Source: Gottfriedia acidiceleris
GTDB taxonomy: Bacteria > Bacillota > Bacilli > Bacillales > Bacillaceae_G
Direction: 5' to 3'
Length of the DNA: 64,000 nucleotides
Assembly (NCBI RefSeq): GCF_002128425.1
Contig: NZ_NESS01000004.1
Location: forward strand, 310,001-374,000
A program made the translations under genes and the position numbers. Under the pieces are notes generated by a model. That model was not told the DNA's origin, did no database searches, and saw only the letters and a program-made list of their open reading frames with translations. Positions 24,787 to 31,048 of the stretch are shown here, piece by piece. Position 1 is the stretch's first letter. Each line of letters begins with the position of its first letter.

Positions 24787-24855
24787 TGTCCAATGCAATG
24801 AATAATTTAATTGATATTCCAAATAATATCTTTGTTATATTATGGAGGTGTTATT

Positions 24856-25269
24856 ATGAGAGTAAAAGACGTCATGTCTAGTAATGTTGAATGTTGTTCA
24901 AATCAGGATTCTTTACAATCTGTGGCAAGTAAAATGGAATCGTTAAATGTTGGTGCAATTCCAGTTGTTGAAAACGGACAAGTAGTTGGGATGATTACAG
25001 ATCGAGATTTAGCTTTACGTGGTATTGGTCAAAGTGGAAACTCAAATGCTTCTCAAGTTATGTCCAATAATATTGTGACAATTGATTGTGATGCTAGTCT
25101 TCAAGAAGCGTCAAATTTAATGGCTCAGCATCAGATAAGAAGACTACCGGTCGTTGAGAATGGTAATCTTGTAGGAATGCTTTCACTGGGTGATTTAGCT
25201 GTACAAGAGCAGTCGGACGAAAGTGCTGGCGAAGCGTTGTCACAAATCTCAGAGAATGATATTCAATAA
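24856..25269 (+). CDS. Tandem CBS domain protein
   Basis: Small cytosolic protein (137 aa) made of two CBS domains (about 7-60 and 70-125), a Bateman module that binds adenosine ligands. Repeats are visible as VGAIPVVENGQVVGMITDRDL and IRRLPVVENGNLVGMLSLGDL, each with the conserved Asp. The open frame reaches back to 24811, but TGGAGGTG lies just before the ATG at 24856, so this start is chosen. It is similar to Bacillus YhcV-type proteins. The ligand is unknown. Confidence 0.88.
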   Translation: MRVKDVMSSNVECCSNQDSLQSVASKMESLNVGAIPVVENGQVVGMITDRDLALRGIGQSGNSNASQVMSNNIVTIDCDASLQEASNLMAQHQIRRLPVVENGNLVGMLSLGDLAVQEQSDESAGEALSQISENDIQ

Positions 25270-25282
25270 TTTTAAAATGAAC

Positions 25283-25312
25283 AAAGGGACCGTAGTTTCA
25301 CTCGGTCCCTTT
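25283..25312. terminator. Bidirectional terminator between the CBS gene and the par locus
   Basis: AAAGGGACCG (25283-25292) and CGGTCCCTTT (25303-25312) form a perfect 10-bp stem with a 10-nt loop at the convergence of the two genes. Confidence 0.85.
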
Positions 25313-25321
25313 TATGATTCC

Positions 25322-25924
25322 TTATTTATTCATTTGTGCAAGAAAATCTCCAAGGAGACTATCCATATCTTCCTCTTCAATTTCTTCCTCAGCTGCTGAA
25401 ATTTCATTTTTGCTTGCAACTTCCCAATTAAAGTTATCTAAATCATCATCACGATCGCTTTTGCTTCCAATGTTATCTAGATTTATTACTTTCCGTTCGT
25501 TTGTAAGAATATTGGTCTGAACGGGTTCCAATTCTGGCTCTAACTCATTCATTTCTTCTTGAAGATATAGAGCTTCTTCAATCGCTAAACTATTACTATT
25601 TAGCGATGTAATAAGAGATGCCGTACGAATTGGGTTGGATAATAGTTGATACACTATACTACCTAATAATGCCTCAGAATGTTCATGTTTTAACCAATCT
25701 CTTTGAGCTTTATCTAAGCTTTTCGGAAGTGGAATCGTTATTGTTTGCCTTTGCTTGGATAATGAGTCATTAATTCCGCTTATTACGTACTCAGCAATCT
25801 TACTTGAAAAGTTTCGCCTTTCGCTTTGCTTAAGCTGTTGCAAATGTTTTATGATTTGTTCAGGCGTATCGGAAGGGATACGAAATGTAATAGGTTGTCC
25901 CCTCGTCAATTCTTTTTCCTTCAT
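25322..25924 (-). CDS. ParR-like partition adaptor protein (inferred)
   Basis: A 200-residue protein encoded 9 bases after the actin-like gene, in the place of a ParR adaptor. The N-terminus looks like two ribbon-helix-helix-like units in a row: ITFRIPSDTPEQIIKHLQQL with following helices (about 12-55), and TITIPLPKSLDKAQRDWL (about 60-95). The C-terminal 60 residues are very acidic (EEEIEEEDMDSLLGDFL) and end MNK. A DNA-binding N-terminus and a C-terminal peptide that contacts the filament are known of ParR-type proteins. No direct sequence match was recalled, so the role rests on position, size and fold pattern. Confidence 0.6.
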   Translation of the reverse strand: MKEKELTRGQPITFRIPSDTPEQIIKHLQQLKQSERRNFSSKIAEYVISGINDSLSKQRQTITIPLPKSLDKAQRDWLKHEHSEALLGSIVYQLLSNPIRTASLITSLNSNSLAIEEALYLQEEMNELEPELEPVQTNILTNERKVINLDNIGSKSDRDDDLDNFNWEVASKNEISAAEEEIEEEDMDSLLGDFLAQMNK

Positions 25925-25933
25925 GGAATCACC

Positions 25934-27136
25934 TTATTTTGCTTTAGACATTTTTTGTTCTTCTCTTTGAGTTTGTTGAGTTTCTCTTCTGGATTCTCTT
26001 ACTCTTTTTATTTCAAAATCAGCGATTAGCTTATAATAAGCATTCGCCATCATCCAGATACTTTCCTTCTCATCCTCAAAGAAATCAATATTATATCCAT
26101 CTAGATTATTATTAAGTGTCTTAAGATATTCTTTTAAGATTAGCGATCCTCCACCAATGAAATAGCATATTTCAGTTTGAGAGTTTTTCTGCCAAATATT
26201 TCGTAAATGGCGATACTGTTTTTTTGCTAATTCTAACAGAATTCGGTCTACAATATCATGTACGCTTGTCCGACTACCTTTAACCATTATATGATTTCGG
26301 TCACTTTTCTTAGTAATGATCTCTACAACGTCTCTTCGGCTATCAAGTTCAACTCCATGTCTAGAACGAATCTCTTCACGAATTGCTTCTAACGACTCTG
26401 CAACGCCGAGATTAAAGCCTTGAGCTTTATCGTCATCTACCTTTCGATTCCTAATGACTGCAATATCAGTTGATAATCCTCCGATGTCTTGAATAAGGAT
26501 TTTTTTATCTATAAGGTCTTTATTAATTATGTTTAAATGATTGTCCATAACTAAGTTAATAAAAGCAGCAAATCCTTCAGGATAAACTTTAACTTCTTCA
26601 AATTTAATATTAACTTTTAATCCTTGATGTCTTGGTGTTACTAAAAACTCTACTTGGTGAACTGAGCCTAGTAATCGTGATCGATAACCAACGTCCTTTC
26701 CTTCCTTAACTTCTCTAAGCGGAAGACCAGTTCCTAATACGTAAGTTGCTTCGATTACATTATTAGAGTTCTTTACAATCTGTTTGTTTTCTTCTCTAGC
26801 TGCATCTAACGCTAATGCTGCAAATAACATGATAAGTGTTTGATCCTCTTCAGACTTATTACTCCCAGGATCTAGTTCTGTTGCATTACCACTTTTAGTT
26901 GCTAAGTTTCCTACACGATAAACAGTGTTATTCTCTTTCAAAGTAGGGGAGTGAACGCGAATATGTATTCCATCAACTGGATCTTGGTTGTCTAATTCTT
27001 CTATCCCAATGATTGGACGATCTTCTGTATCCCTTGCAATAATATTAGGAATATTTATCTCAGATTCCATCTTCCCAAAAATTCCTTTGAGTGAATCGTT
27101 TCCTACATCAATAGCAGCTATACGAGCATTTACCAC
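25934..27136 (-). CDS. parM: ParM/StbA family actin-like ATPase
   Basis: Actin-fold protein (400 aa) that would form filaments to move DNA copies apart. The nucleotide-binding motifs are in order: AAIDVGNDSLKG (phosphate 1, residues 7-18), IQDIGGLSTDIAVI (phosphate 2, 215-228) and FIGGGSLILKEYL (adenosine, 326-338). The C-terminus has a charged Arg/Gln-rich tail. Upstream on the same strand lies the iteron array, so the order is centromere-actin-adaptor, as in plasmid type II partition loci. It may instead be a phage or integrated-plasmid relic; no replication gene is nearby. An AAAGGGATG site precedes the ATG. Confidence 0.88.
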   Translation of the reverse strand: MVNARIAAIDVGNDSLKGIFGKMESEINIPNIIARDTEDRPIIGIEELDNQDPVDGIHIRVHSPTLKENNTVYRVGNLATKSGNATELDPGSNKSEEDQTLIMLFAALALDAAREENKQIVKNSNNVIEATYVLGTGLPLREVKEGKDVGYRSRLLGSVHQVEFLVTPRHQGLKVNIKFEEVKVYPEGFAAFINLVMDNHLNIINKDLIDKKILIQDIGGLSTDIAVIRNRKVDDDKAQGFNLGVAESLEAIREEIRSRHGVELDSRRDVVEIITKKSDRNHIMVKGSRTSVHDIVDRILLELAKKQYRHLRNIWQKNSQTEICYFIGGGSLILKEYLKTLNNNLDGYNIDFFEDEKESIWMMANAYYKLIADFEIKRVRESRRETQQTQREEQKMSKAK

Positions 27137-27235
27137 CTAAATCATCCCTTTCGTTAATAGGTTTACATATTAATAGATAATTCTGATATTAGATTATCTA
27201 AATTTAGCCATCCGGTCAATGTCCCATACTGAACT

Positions 27236-27241
27236 ATTATA
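27236..27241 (-). promoter_or_regulatory. Candidate -10 box of the par operon
   Basis: TATAAT on the minus strand, between the iterons and parM. No good -35 box was found at 16-18 bases, and that position abuts the first iterons, so adaptor binding could control the promoter. Confidence 0.35.
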
Positions 27242-27264
27242 AAAATGTAACTGAATTGACATCT

Positions 27265-27511
27265 TGTATACAAAAATGTAAACACATAAACTTGTATACA
27301 TTTTCGTATACATGTGTACAAAAATGTATACAATTGTTTACAAAAACGTGTACTTGTACACATAAGTGTATACTTATCCTTTTTATTCTAAAATTTTTTT
27401 CAGAATCGTTGTTTCCTACCTGTTAATAAAATGTGTACAATTCGTGTACAAGTATACTTTATCGTATACAATTGTTTACAAAATGTATTCTTGTTTACAA
27501 ACATGTGTACA
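27265..27511. repeat. Centromere-like iteron arrays (parC candidate)
   Basis: About 18 copies of an 8-base motif close to TGTNTACA (variants TGTATACA, TGTGTACA, TGTTTACA, CGTATACA). Copies start at 27265, 27278, 27293, 27305, 27313, 27325, 27335, 27347, 27355 and 27367. After a gap they resume at 27432, 27443, 27451, 27463, 27473, 27484, 27492 and 27504. Motif starts are about 10 bases apart on average, near one helical turn. It lies directly upstream of parM. A ParR-type protein would bind such an array. Three copies are degenerate: 27347, 27451 and 27484. Confidence 0.8.
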
Positions 27512-28618: not shown

Positions 28619-28650
28619 AAAAACAATATTTGTCGTATTGTTTTTATTTT
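28619..28650 (+). terminator. Riboswitch-controlled terminator of the que operon
   Basis: AAAAACAAT (28619-28627) and ATTGTTTTT (28637-28645), then ATTTTT. It begins three bases after the aptamer tail, the usual expression platform of preQ1-I riboswitches. Confidence 0.75.
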
Positions 28651-28701
28651 TGTTATTCGGGATGCCCTCTTCTTTTTAATCATGTAAAGGAGAGAAGAAA
28701 T

Positions 28702-29367
28702 ATGAAAAATGAAAAAGCAATCGTTGTATTTAGCGGTGGCCAAGACAGTACTACTTGTTTATTCTGGGCTATGCAACAATTTGGTGAGGTTGAAGCTGTT
28801 ACGTTTAATTACAATCAACGCCATAAACTAGAATTAGATGTAGCTGCAGATATTTGCAAGGAATTAAATATTCCCCACCATATCCTTGATATGTCCTTGT
28901 TAAATCAGCTTGCACCAAATGCTTTAACAAGATCAGATATTGATATAACTCACGAAGAAGGTGAACTACCTTCTACATTCGTCGATGGACGTAACTTATT
29001 ATTCCTATCTTTTGCAGCAGTACTTGCTAAACAAAAAGGAGCAAAGCACATTATTACTGGTGTTTGTGAGACTGACTTTAGCGGATACCCTGACTGCCGA
29101 GATATCTTTGTTAAATCATTAAATGTAACTCTTAATCTATCAATGGATTATCCATTCGTTATCCATACTCCACTTATGTGGATTGATAAAGCTGACACAT
29201 GGAAATTAGCTGATGATTTAGGCGCATTTGAATACGTTAAAAATAAAACATTAACTTGCTATAATGGCATTATTTCTGATGGTTGTGGAGAATGTCCGGC
29301 ATGTGAGCTTCGTCAGGCTGGTTTAGATCGTTACCTACAATCGAAGGGAGCCACAAAGCATGTTTGA
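28702..29367 (+). CDS. queC: 7-cyano-7-deazaguanine synthase
   Basis: Converts 7-carboxy-7-deazaguanine to preQ0 with ATP and ammonia in queuosine synthesis. The 221-residue protein has the PP-loop [13 protein letters not shown] at about residues 11-23 and a C-terminal zinc site [14 protein letters not shown]. The frame is open from 28630, but AAAGGAGAG lies before the ATG at 28702, which is chosen. First gene of queCDEF; it overlaps queD by 8 bases. Confidence 0.95.
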
Positions 29368-29836
29368 TTTTCGCATCGTAGAAAGACTTCATAAAATTGA
29401 TGAACATATCAAAAAAGAAGACTTAAAATATCACCATAAACGCGTTCTTGTTAATAAAGAATTTACCTTTGATGCTGCACATCACTTACACTGCTATGAA
29501 GGTAAATGCAAGAACCTACATGGCCACACATATAAAGTTATTTTTGGAATTAGTGGTTTTGTTGACGAGATCGGTTTAGTAATCGACTTCGGTGATATTA
29601 AACAAATTTGGAAAGAAAAAATTGAAATTTATTTAGATCACCGTTATTTAAATGAGATGCTACCTCTGATGAATACAACAGCAGAGAATATGGTTGTTTG
29701 GATTTTTGAGCAAATGGAAAATGCGCTTAAAGATGAAACAAATCCTGCACAAGATATTAGAGTTGAGTTTGTTCGTTTATTTGAAACGCCTACAAGCTAT
29801 GCAGAAGCTCGTAGGGAGTGGATGATCAATGAGTAA
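29360..29836 (+). CDS. queD: 6-carboxytetrahydropterin synthase
   Basis: Makes 6-carboxytetrahydropterin from dihydroneopterin triphosphate. The protein has 158 residues with an N-terminal extension of about 35. The zinc histidines appear in [13 protein letters not shown] and NLHGHTYKV, the catalytic cysteine is in that segment, and [13 protein letters not shown] is the conserved C-terminal helix. It overlaps queC and queE by 8 bases each, so translation is coupled. Confidence 0.95.
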
Positions 29837-30545
29837 AATTCCAGTACTTGAAATATTCGGACCTACTGTACAAGGTGAAGGAATGGCAATCGGTCAAAAA
29901 ACAATGTTTATTCGTACTGCTGGTTGTGATTATTCTTGTAGTTGGTGCGATTCTTCTTTCACATGGGATGGTAGTGAAAAAGAGAATATAAAATGGATGA
30001 CTGCAGAAGAAGTTTGGGAGAATTTAGTGAATTTAGGTAGCGATACATTCTCTCATATAACGATTTCTGGTGGAAACCCCGCGCTTCTTCCTTCATTAGG
30101 CCCTGTAGTTGAGTTTTTAAAAGAAAAGAATATGACTTTGGCTCTTGAAACTCAAGGTAGTAAGTGGCAAACTTGGTTACCTTCTATTGATGAAGTAACT
30201 TTATCACCTAAACCGCCTAGCAGCGGCATGAATACTGATTTTGATATGCTCGGAAATATCATTCAAAATTTAGAAAACCATCCTAAATTTTGCTTAAAGG
30301 TTGTTATTTTTGATGAAAAAGATTTAGCTTATGCTGAAACTGTTCATCAAAAGTTTCCACACGTTCCGTTCTTCTTACAAGTCGGTAATAGTTGGCTAAA
30401 TGCAGATGATGGCACTTTATTGCAATACATGCTAAATCGTTATGAATGGCTTATAGATGAAGCAATGAAATCAAAAGTCTTTAAAAATGTAAAAGTTTTA
30501 CCTCAATTACATGCATTTGTTTGGGGAAATAAGAGAGGAGTTTAA
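29829..30545 (+). CDS. queE: 7-carboxy-7-deazaguanine synthase (radical SAM)
   Basis: Radical SAM enzyme (238 aa) that contracts the pterin ring to 7-carboxy-7-deazaguanine. The cluster motif is [12 protein letters not shown] near residue 35, the CX3CX2C form of the QueE family, after the substrate loop [22 protein letters not shown] is the SAM GGNP motif. It is translationally coupled to queD. Confidence 0.95.
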
Positions 30546-30550
30546 CCAAA

Positions 30551-31048
30551 ATGGTAGGAAGATCAAAAGGATCACTTGAAGATGTATCATTACTTGGCAG
30601 CAACAACACAAAATATTTATTTGAATATGATCCAGGAATATTAGAAACATTTGATAATACTCACCCTGATCGTGATTATTTCGTAAAATTTAATTTCCCT
30701 GAATTTACTTCACTTTGTCCAAAAACTGGTCAACCAGACTTTGCAACAATTTATATCAGCTATATTCCTGAGAAAAAAATGGTTGAAAGTAAATCATTAA
30801 AACTATACTTCTTTAGCTTCCGTAATCATGGTGACTTCCATGAAGATTGTATGAATATCATTATGGATGATCTAATCAAATTAATGGATCCTCGTTATAT
30901 TGAGGTTTGGGGAAAATTCACTCCACGTGGCGGAATTTCAATTGACCCATATTGCAACTATGGTCGCCCAGGTACAAAATACGAAAAAATGGCTGAACAT
31001 CGTATGATGAACCATGATTTATATCCTGAAAAGATTGATAATCGATAA
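30551..31048 (+). CDS. queF: preQ1 synthase (NADPH-dependent nitrile reductase)
   Basis: Reduces preQ0 to preQ1, the product sensed by the upstream riboswitch. The 165-residue protein has the active cysteine in [14 protein letters not shown] and the binding segment [20 protein letters not shown], typical of short (unimodular) QueF. Last gene of the operon; a terminator follows. Confidence 0.96.

Follow-up and report, generated by a model that had tools for sequence, protein, structure and literature searches.

The stretch of DNA analysed here (the window) is a 64,000-nucleotide segment of the Gottfriedia acidiceleris contig NZ_NESS01000004.1, positions 310,001 to 374,000. Its minus strand carries, in the order of transcription, a centromere-like repeat array, a gene encoding an actin of the ParM/Alp7A type and a gene encoding a small ParR-like partner protein. 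ParMRC systems are known as plasmid machines. Here, a plasmid-type actin system occurs as a strongly conserved chromosomal gene pair with its array, near the origin of replication (oriC), in many Bacillus-like genera. An earlier description drawn from the letters of the window (the sequence-only reading) had noticed an array, an actin and a 200-residue adaptor-like protein in that order; the array and both open reading frames (ORFs) are confirmed, and the actin is single-copy in the window's genome. The features of the locus are the following (window coordinates):

27266..27511, no strand: centromere-like array of 17 near-palindromic GTNTAC/GTANAC cores, consensus TGTATACA
27191..27219, minus strand: putative promoter of the actin-partner operon (TTGACC, 17-bp spacer, TAATCT), called by eye
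25934..27136, minus strand: ORF of the ParM/Alp7A-type actin, 400 aa, GTG start (Pfam, PHROG, AlphaFold2, Foldseek)
25322..25924, minus strand: ORF of the ParR-like partner, 200 aa (alignment of 52 sequences, hhalign to plasmid partners)
25775..25903, minus strand: codons of partner residues 8-50, putative ribbon-helix-helix (AlphaFold2 secondary structure)
25325..25366, minus strand: codons of partner residues 187-200, the C-terminal tail, consensus DDLLGDFLAQMN

The actin matches the Pfam models Alp7A_like_C (7.3e-36), MreB-like_C and ALP_N, all above cut-off. The ParM C-terminal Pfam model remains below its cut-off and no NCBIfam model exceeds its own. The PHROG «partition protein» family matches at 4.7e-42. 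The AlphaFold2 model of the actin (pLDDT 73.1, pTM 0.72) was compared with the PDB by Foldseek: the best match is ParM of Bacillus thuringiensis (BtParM, E 1.2e-21), followed by Dh-cParM1 and Alp7A (TM 0.64-0.70). A profile search of the PDB gives weak ParM matches (best 0.0027). Profile searches and modelling, both suggested by the sequence-only reading, thus place the protein in the ParM/Alp7A family.

A scan of the genome collection returned 397 loci; the best 80 were kept and studied, so more distant loci lie outside this set. The actin frame is open in all 80 (389-440 aa). Forty-three actins were aligned, i.e., that of the window and 42 representatives of the 80 loci. The motifs D10-V-G-N13, D217-I-G-G220, T223-D224 and G328-G-G330, which we take to be residues of the ATP site, are invariant among them, in line with the earlier remark that the actin motifs look intact.

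The partner follows the actin directly in 80/80 loci. It has no useful family match in Pfam, NCBIfam or PADLOC, and none in the fold search or in the PDB profile search. The alignment of 52 partners (window plus 51 representatives of the 80 loci) delimits three parts: (i) a conserved N-terminal half, up to about residue 123; (ii) a hypervariable acidic linker; (iii) an invariant C-terminal tail, in which F194, L195, M198 and N199 are found in all 52 sequences, after the non-conserved linker. By comparison with the ParR proteins of R1 and pSK41, this tail is likely to be the actin-contacting peptide. For residues 8-50 the model gives an extended stretch followed by helices 22-34 and 39-49, with no strand predicted.

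The plasmid collection contains 32 records with a relative of the actin, none above 44.2% identity. In each of the six records examined (41-44% actin identity) an ORF of 134-151 aa, annotated «hypothetical protein», lies directly after the actin. Aligned by hhalign with the profile of these six proteins, the partner of the window matches over residues 2-99 with a probability of 99.8% (E 1.7e-28). The plasmid homologue L211 also has a weak match to an Arc-like regulator family (E 0.0087, residues 21-57). The locus thus combines (i) a ParM-type actin with intact nucleotide-site motifs, (ii) an adjacent adaptor whose homologues accompany the ParM relatives of plasmids and (iii) centromere-like repeats beside the operon, present as sequence. 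The type II partition architecture proposed from the sequence is therefore upheld.

The array cores span 27266-27510 in two blocks, 27266-27373 and 27433-27510, with spacings of mostly 12, 8 and 10. In the leader, position 27161 has one additional isolated core. Chance does not account for the array: 2000 first-order Markov resamples of its sequence contained 1.7 cores on average and never more than 8, vs. the 17 counted, and no other 250-nt stretch of the window has more than 3. An imperfect inverted repeat of 37 nt (84%) joins the two blocks, 27325-27361 with 27444-27480, 82 nt apart. Arrays of the same core precede the actin in 80/80 loci, with a median of 11 cores per 500 nt (range 4-19) vs. 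0.46 per 500 nt downstream of the actin. Over these loci, adjacent cores are most often 8 or 12 bp apart. In one of them (L072, Fictibacillus) the 500 nt upstream of the actin contain 4 standard cores and, by eye, several of GTTTGC type; this suggests that array and partner specificity may drift together.

Such an array could be a mere autoregulatory operator, the actin serving a structural or cytoskeletal purpose unconnected with DNA. The plasmid relatives lend some weight to this idea, since L211 and L212 have their few TGTATACA cores around or within the promoter, where an operator would be expected; in L210 and L213 a GCATAC variant occupies this place, and L209 and L214 offer no clear case. 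The chromosomal loci are organized otherwise. Within 500 nt upstream of the actin, the plasmids have 1-5 cores vs. the median of 11 on chromosomes, which is beyond the needs of an operator. In the window, the closest array core lies 46 bp upstream of the putative promoter. An element of the type TTGA..-N16-18-TATAAT was called by a simple scan in 28/80 loci; 269 cores are upstream of it, 16 inside and 18 after. Promoter conservation is only partly shown by these calls because some fall inside the array. Moreover, the layout resembles parC of pSK41 and the partner retains a peptide like an actin-binding tail. A mere operator is thus unlikely.

The distribution of the array cores over the chromosome was evaluated with two measures. 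A strict three-core pattern is found solely at the array, with one match in the window's genome, three in genome G002 and two in G117; since G063 and G027 give none, it is too strict for some genomes. The looser measure, at least 4 cores per 100 nt, was applied in five genomes to the 300 kb left of dnaA and to up to 20 kb on its right. Three of these genomes have, in the stretches covered, no cluster beyond the array, i.e., no sign of dispersed centromeres. With the criterion of at least 4 cores in 300 nt, no cluster is found downstream of the operon in any of the 80 loci. In G027 (locus L159), a second cluster is located just downstream of the partner, so that this operon is flanked by arrays on both sides.

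An orthologue of the actin, 74-100% identical, is present in 98 of 199 genomes sampled from the order, i.e., in 42/97 genera; within the genus it is found in 12/13 genomes and in the family sample in 14/19. Two other matches at E 1e-40 were obtained in the 199 genomes (35% and 42% identical). The hosts are Bacillaceae, among them Alkalihalophilus pseudofirmus OF4, and at least two Sporosarcina. A comparison of related genomes, proposed by the sequence-only reading, thus gives the actin in 98/199 genomes, with partner and array at all 80 studied loci.

The actin is under strong purifying selection: in four within-genus comparisons dN is 0.001-0.014 and dS is 0.16-0.38. Over 30 named genomes the mean patristic distances are 0.26 (actin), 0.46 (DnaA) and 1.64 (partner); the actin thus changes more slowly than DnaA, and the partner is fast, with an invariant tail. 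Actin and DnaA distances are correlated (Mantel r 0.45, a value reached in 0/2000 permutations), and the two trees have 8 of 27 splits in common.

The position of the actin was expressed with reference to dnaA, located by TIGR00362; this search included part of the 98 carriers. In 59/59 measurable genomes the actin is left of dnaA and on the opposite strand, at 35-264 kb (median 75 kb); these 59 include related, non-independent genomes. They consist of 39 genomes, 12 more, and 8 for which contigs taken as circular were wrapped. For seven (L025, L059, L069, L077, L078, L079, L082) the place of the actin comes from the locus range, and its presence on the dnaA contig from contig sizes. Sixteen distinct genomes were left out, actin and dnaA being on separate contigs (6/43 and 11/30, one in both). 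Two Sporosarcina belong to the set, with distances of 207 kb (G235) and 68 kb (G238). Fragmented assemblies favour short distances, yet 19 of the 59 have 1-3 contigs, and these, as well as three more named as complete chromosomes, fit the pattern. The gene queC, which adjoins the locus in Gottfriedia, served as control (without the window's own row): its median distance from dnaA is 1.48 Mb, it lies within 300 kb in 3/24 genomes, two of them Gottfriedia, and farther away in the other 21.

As background to this position, four genomes belonging to other families were compared with the window's genome over 300 kb on the left side of dnaA. In the block beside dnaA (-30 to 0 kb), 26/28 ORFs are found in all four. 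The segment from -120 to -30 kb is a variable gap: of its 73 ORFs of at least 80 aa, 44 match in none of the four genomes and 26 in one or two. The three with reciprocal matches in all four are the actin, the partner and one ABC ATPase, and for the latter place and strand disagree; conservation in place in the four genomes is thus limited to actin and partner. The variable gap between two conserved blocks is seen in the actin-bearing genomes compared and also in G016, a genome of the same family. G016 retains both blocks and the gap; it has no actin genome-wide at 1e-5, and partner and array are absent too within the 320 kb searched around dnaA.

It could be argued that proximity to oriC is a by-product of gene order, the real job being elsewhere, e.g., in sporulation-specific DNA handling. 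Indeed, much of the 300 kb left of oriC has a conserved macro-order, and the presence of the actin is independent of that of RacA (see below). As a proof of function, origin proximity is weakened by this general conservation of gene order. Against the by-product explanation, no other ORF of the variable gap is kept in place in all four genomes; the pair is therefore held while its neighbours change. Passive proximity, with a job elsewhere, appears very doubtful.

These data also bear on the two origins offered by the sequence-only reading: an integrated and decayed plasmid, or a chromosomal actin system kept for another job such as element maintenance. It is true that the nearest non-chromosomal relatives are plasmid-borne, and that genes are ordered alike in the six plasmid loci examined. 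However, the frames open in 80/80 loci, a dN/dS far below 1, one chromosomal place kept across genera, left of dnaA in 59/59 measurable genomes, and the ceiling of 44.2% identity to plasmid copies all contradict an integrated, decaying plasmid or the passenger of an integrative element. No accompanying gene family exists: within about 6 kb on each side (less at contig ends), each other family is limited to at most 16 of the 80 loci. A tblastn search of the actin against 50,697 phage records has no match at 1e-5, and a phage origin was rejected. Accompanying plasmid genes, a patchy site and decay being all absent, the integrated plasmid was rejected as well and is considered extremely improbable. 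Of the earlier interpretation, the type II architecture and a chromosomal system kept for another job stand; the decayed plasmid falls, and element maintenance is left without support, given that no other gene family travels with the pair. Partner homology and common cores point to a shared ancestry of the chromosomal and plasmid systems, for some including the DNA motif.

A second actin of 35% identity, with a 126-aa partner, was found at L015 (G002:C1:2349366-2350451), approximately opposite the origin of the single-contig G002 chromosome (about 4.69 Mb). Its neighbour has no Pfam match at 0.01; L015 is therefore not called an integrated plasmid.

The system might also act on plasmids in trans, either stabilising those which carry TGTATACA sites or, by incompatibility, destabilising them. 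Two of the six examined plasmid relatives share the core motif at their promoters. In addition, the Gottfriedia genomes G008 and G012 each have the chromosomal actin and a 40% relative, which for G012 has the same coordinates as a match on a 250-kb plasmid record (H26). Conversely, the exact three-core pattern of the window's genome is confined to the locus itself, and a second relative at E 1e-40 is present in 2/98 carriers (weaker ones were not counted). Action in trans is considered distinctly improbable.

A Soj/Spo0J-like pair (named by eye from the N-termini) lies about 9 kb left of dnaA in all five actin-bearing genomes compared, and each of these five has parS-like sites with at most 2 mismatches no farther than about 25 kb from dnaA. 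ParABS thus appears to be supplemented by the actin system, not replaced. RacA sites of B. subtilis are found mainly in the 250 kb left of oriC, and prespores capture DNA whose centre lies slightly to the left of oriC (PMC4949633). Actin and RacA-like proteins were counted in the 199 genomes: 50 have both, 48 the actin alone, 54 RacA alone and 47 neither by these queries (Fisher p 0.78). The actin as a RacA substitute was dropped, there being no association. The RacA query was an approximate N-terminal fragment, and weaker matches may be other MerR-like proteins; two of the best matches are RacA-sized ORFs. The window's own genome has no RacA match beyond 1e-6 (best 1.6e-4).

Taken together, the data lead to the moderately probable interpretation that the locus is a resident, mainly vertically inherited chromosomal system of ParMRC type, which would act on the region left of oriC beside Soj-Spo0J. 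It is not plasmid-borne, as type II partition systems are, being on the chromosome near oriC; it can therefore be said to work like type II partition, with a cargo that has presumably changed. The actin system may thus help to move or to hold the chromosome. In the mechanism proposed, (i) partner dimers would occupy the array at intervals of about 20 bp and build a segrosome; (ii) their invariant C-terminal tails would dock on actin subunits, the array tracking, nucleating or capping filament ends; (iii) the array, because it is near oriC, would be replicated soon after initiation, giving two sister arrays early; (iv) filaments between the sister arrays would push apart, hold or anchor the region left of oriC; (v) all this would run in parallel with Soj-Spo0J/parS. 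Steps (i) and (ii) follow the analogy of pSK41 and R1 (PMC4911067), and from binding onward each step is inferred.

Several observations weigh against the interpretation of a resident system acting on the origin side. The partner model is poor (pTM 0.29, no fold match) and the ribbon-helix-helix is putative. The array is not strictly unique everywhere: G117 has a four-core cluster at -220 kb, and the second cluster of G027 comprises six cores at -59.36 to -59.24 kb. At E 1e-40, 101/199 genomes of the order have no match, i.e., the locus is dispensable at species level, and the presence of the actin is uncorrelated with that of RacA. In the block from -200 to -120 kb, 39/76 ORFs are also kept in all four compared genomes; gene order left of oriC being conserved in general, proximity to the origin may be passive inheritance. 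Finally, 16 pairs of well-supported splits conflict between the actin and DnaA trees, and partner and DnaA distances are weakly correlated (Mantel r 0.20, p 0.06); some horizontal exchange is therefore possible. Inheritance is read as mainly vertical, with some exchange or tree error.

A stronger proposition is that, in much of the Bacillaceae, an actin spindle segregates or anchors the origin region beside ParABS-SMC, by means of a centromere-like array left of oriC, an adaptor and an actin more conserved than DnaA. It is advanced tentatively and is, for the moment, rather improbable; if true, it would mean actin-driven chromosome segregation in bacteria. In any case a widespread ParMRC-type system sits in the region which in B. 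subtilis anchors the origin side to the pole, and whether actin serves bacteria to move their own chromosome becomes a question directly testable by deletion and imaging in Bacillaceae.

Among known systems, the Alp7A group includes Alp7A-Alp7R of pLS20. With this group and the plasmid ParM/StbA proteins of Bacillaceae and Paenibacillus, the locus shares the Alp7A_like_C family, an actin followed by a small partner matching by profile and, for two of the six plasmids examined, the core motif at the promoter. It differs from them by the low actin identity (44.2% at most), by their shorter partners (134-151 aa) with a different tail and by the number of cores (1-5 vs. a median of 11).

Chromosome-encoded ParMs (cParMs) were described in 2025, with polymerisation shown for two; that report names Dh-cParM1, Cb-cParM and Bt-cParM1/2 (WP_001968526.1 and WP_000025611.1), those of Bacillus tropicus being, according to it, highly conserved in Bacillus (PMC12270681). 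The locus has the same composition, i.e., a ParM-fold actin and an adjacent ParR-like gene on a chromosome, with a bound repeat site in the case of Cb (PMC12270681). Dh-cParM1 differs in giving a weak sequence match to the window actin (E 0.41). In the part available, origin proximity, synteny, conservation in many genera and the present array are not mentioned, and chromosomal ParMs are said to be yet to be implicated in chromosome segregation (PMC12270681). A literature search, covering few subscription journals, has found nothing closer to the locus than this report.

In the staphylococcal plasmid system parMRC of pSK41, a repeat array likewise lies directly upstream of the actin and adaptor genes; its 10-bp repeats are bound by ParR dimers-of-dimers and the ParR C-terminus is needed (PMC4911067). 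It differs in being plasmid-borne and in its 17% identity in the fold alignment. RacA/ram and Soj-Spo0J/parS of B. subtilis act around and left of oriC, i.e., in the zone of the window locus (PMC4949633). They are not actin systems, and the presence of RacA is unrelated to the locus in the 199 genomes.

The surroundings of the locus can be described briefly. No match was obtained in the window with Rfam (gathering threshold) or in the tRNA scan. PADLOC at 0.01 has no defence-system match, and a defence system was rejected on this basis. The flanking features are:

28630-31048: queCDEF (queC by TIGR00364; queD, queE and queF by eye)
25286..25309, no strand: hairpin GGGACCG...CGGTCCC, an inverted repeat between the convergent partner and CBS genes
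24811-25269, convergent with the partner gene: CBS-domain gene (Pfam)

The flanks named by the sequence-only reading, a CBS protein gene and queCDEF, are thus recovered, the CBS domain by Pfam and queC by TIGR00364. The hairpin at 25286..25309 is likely to be a terminator common to the partner and CBS genes.

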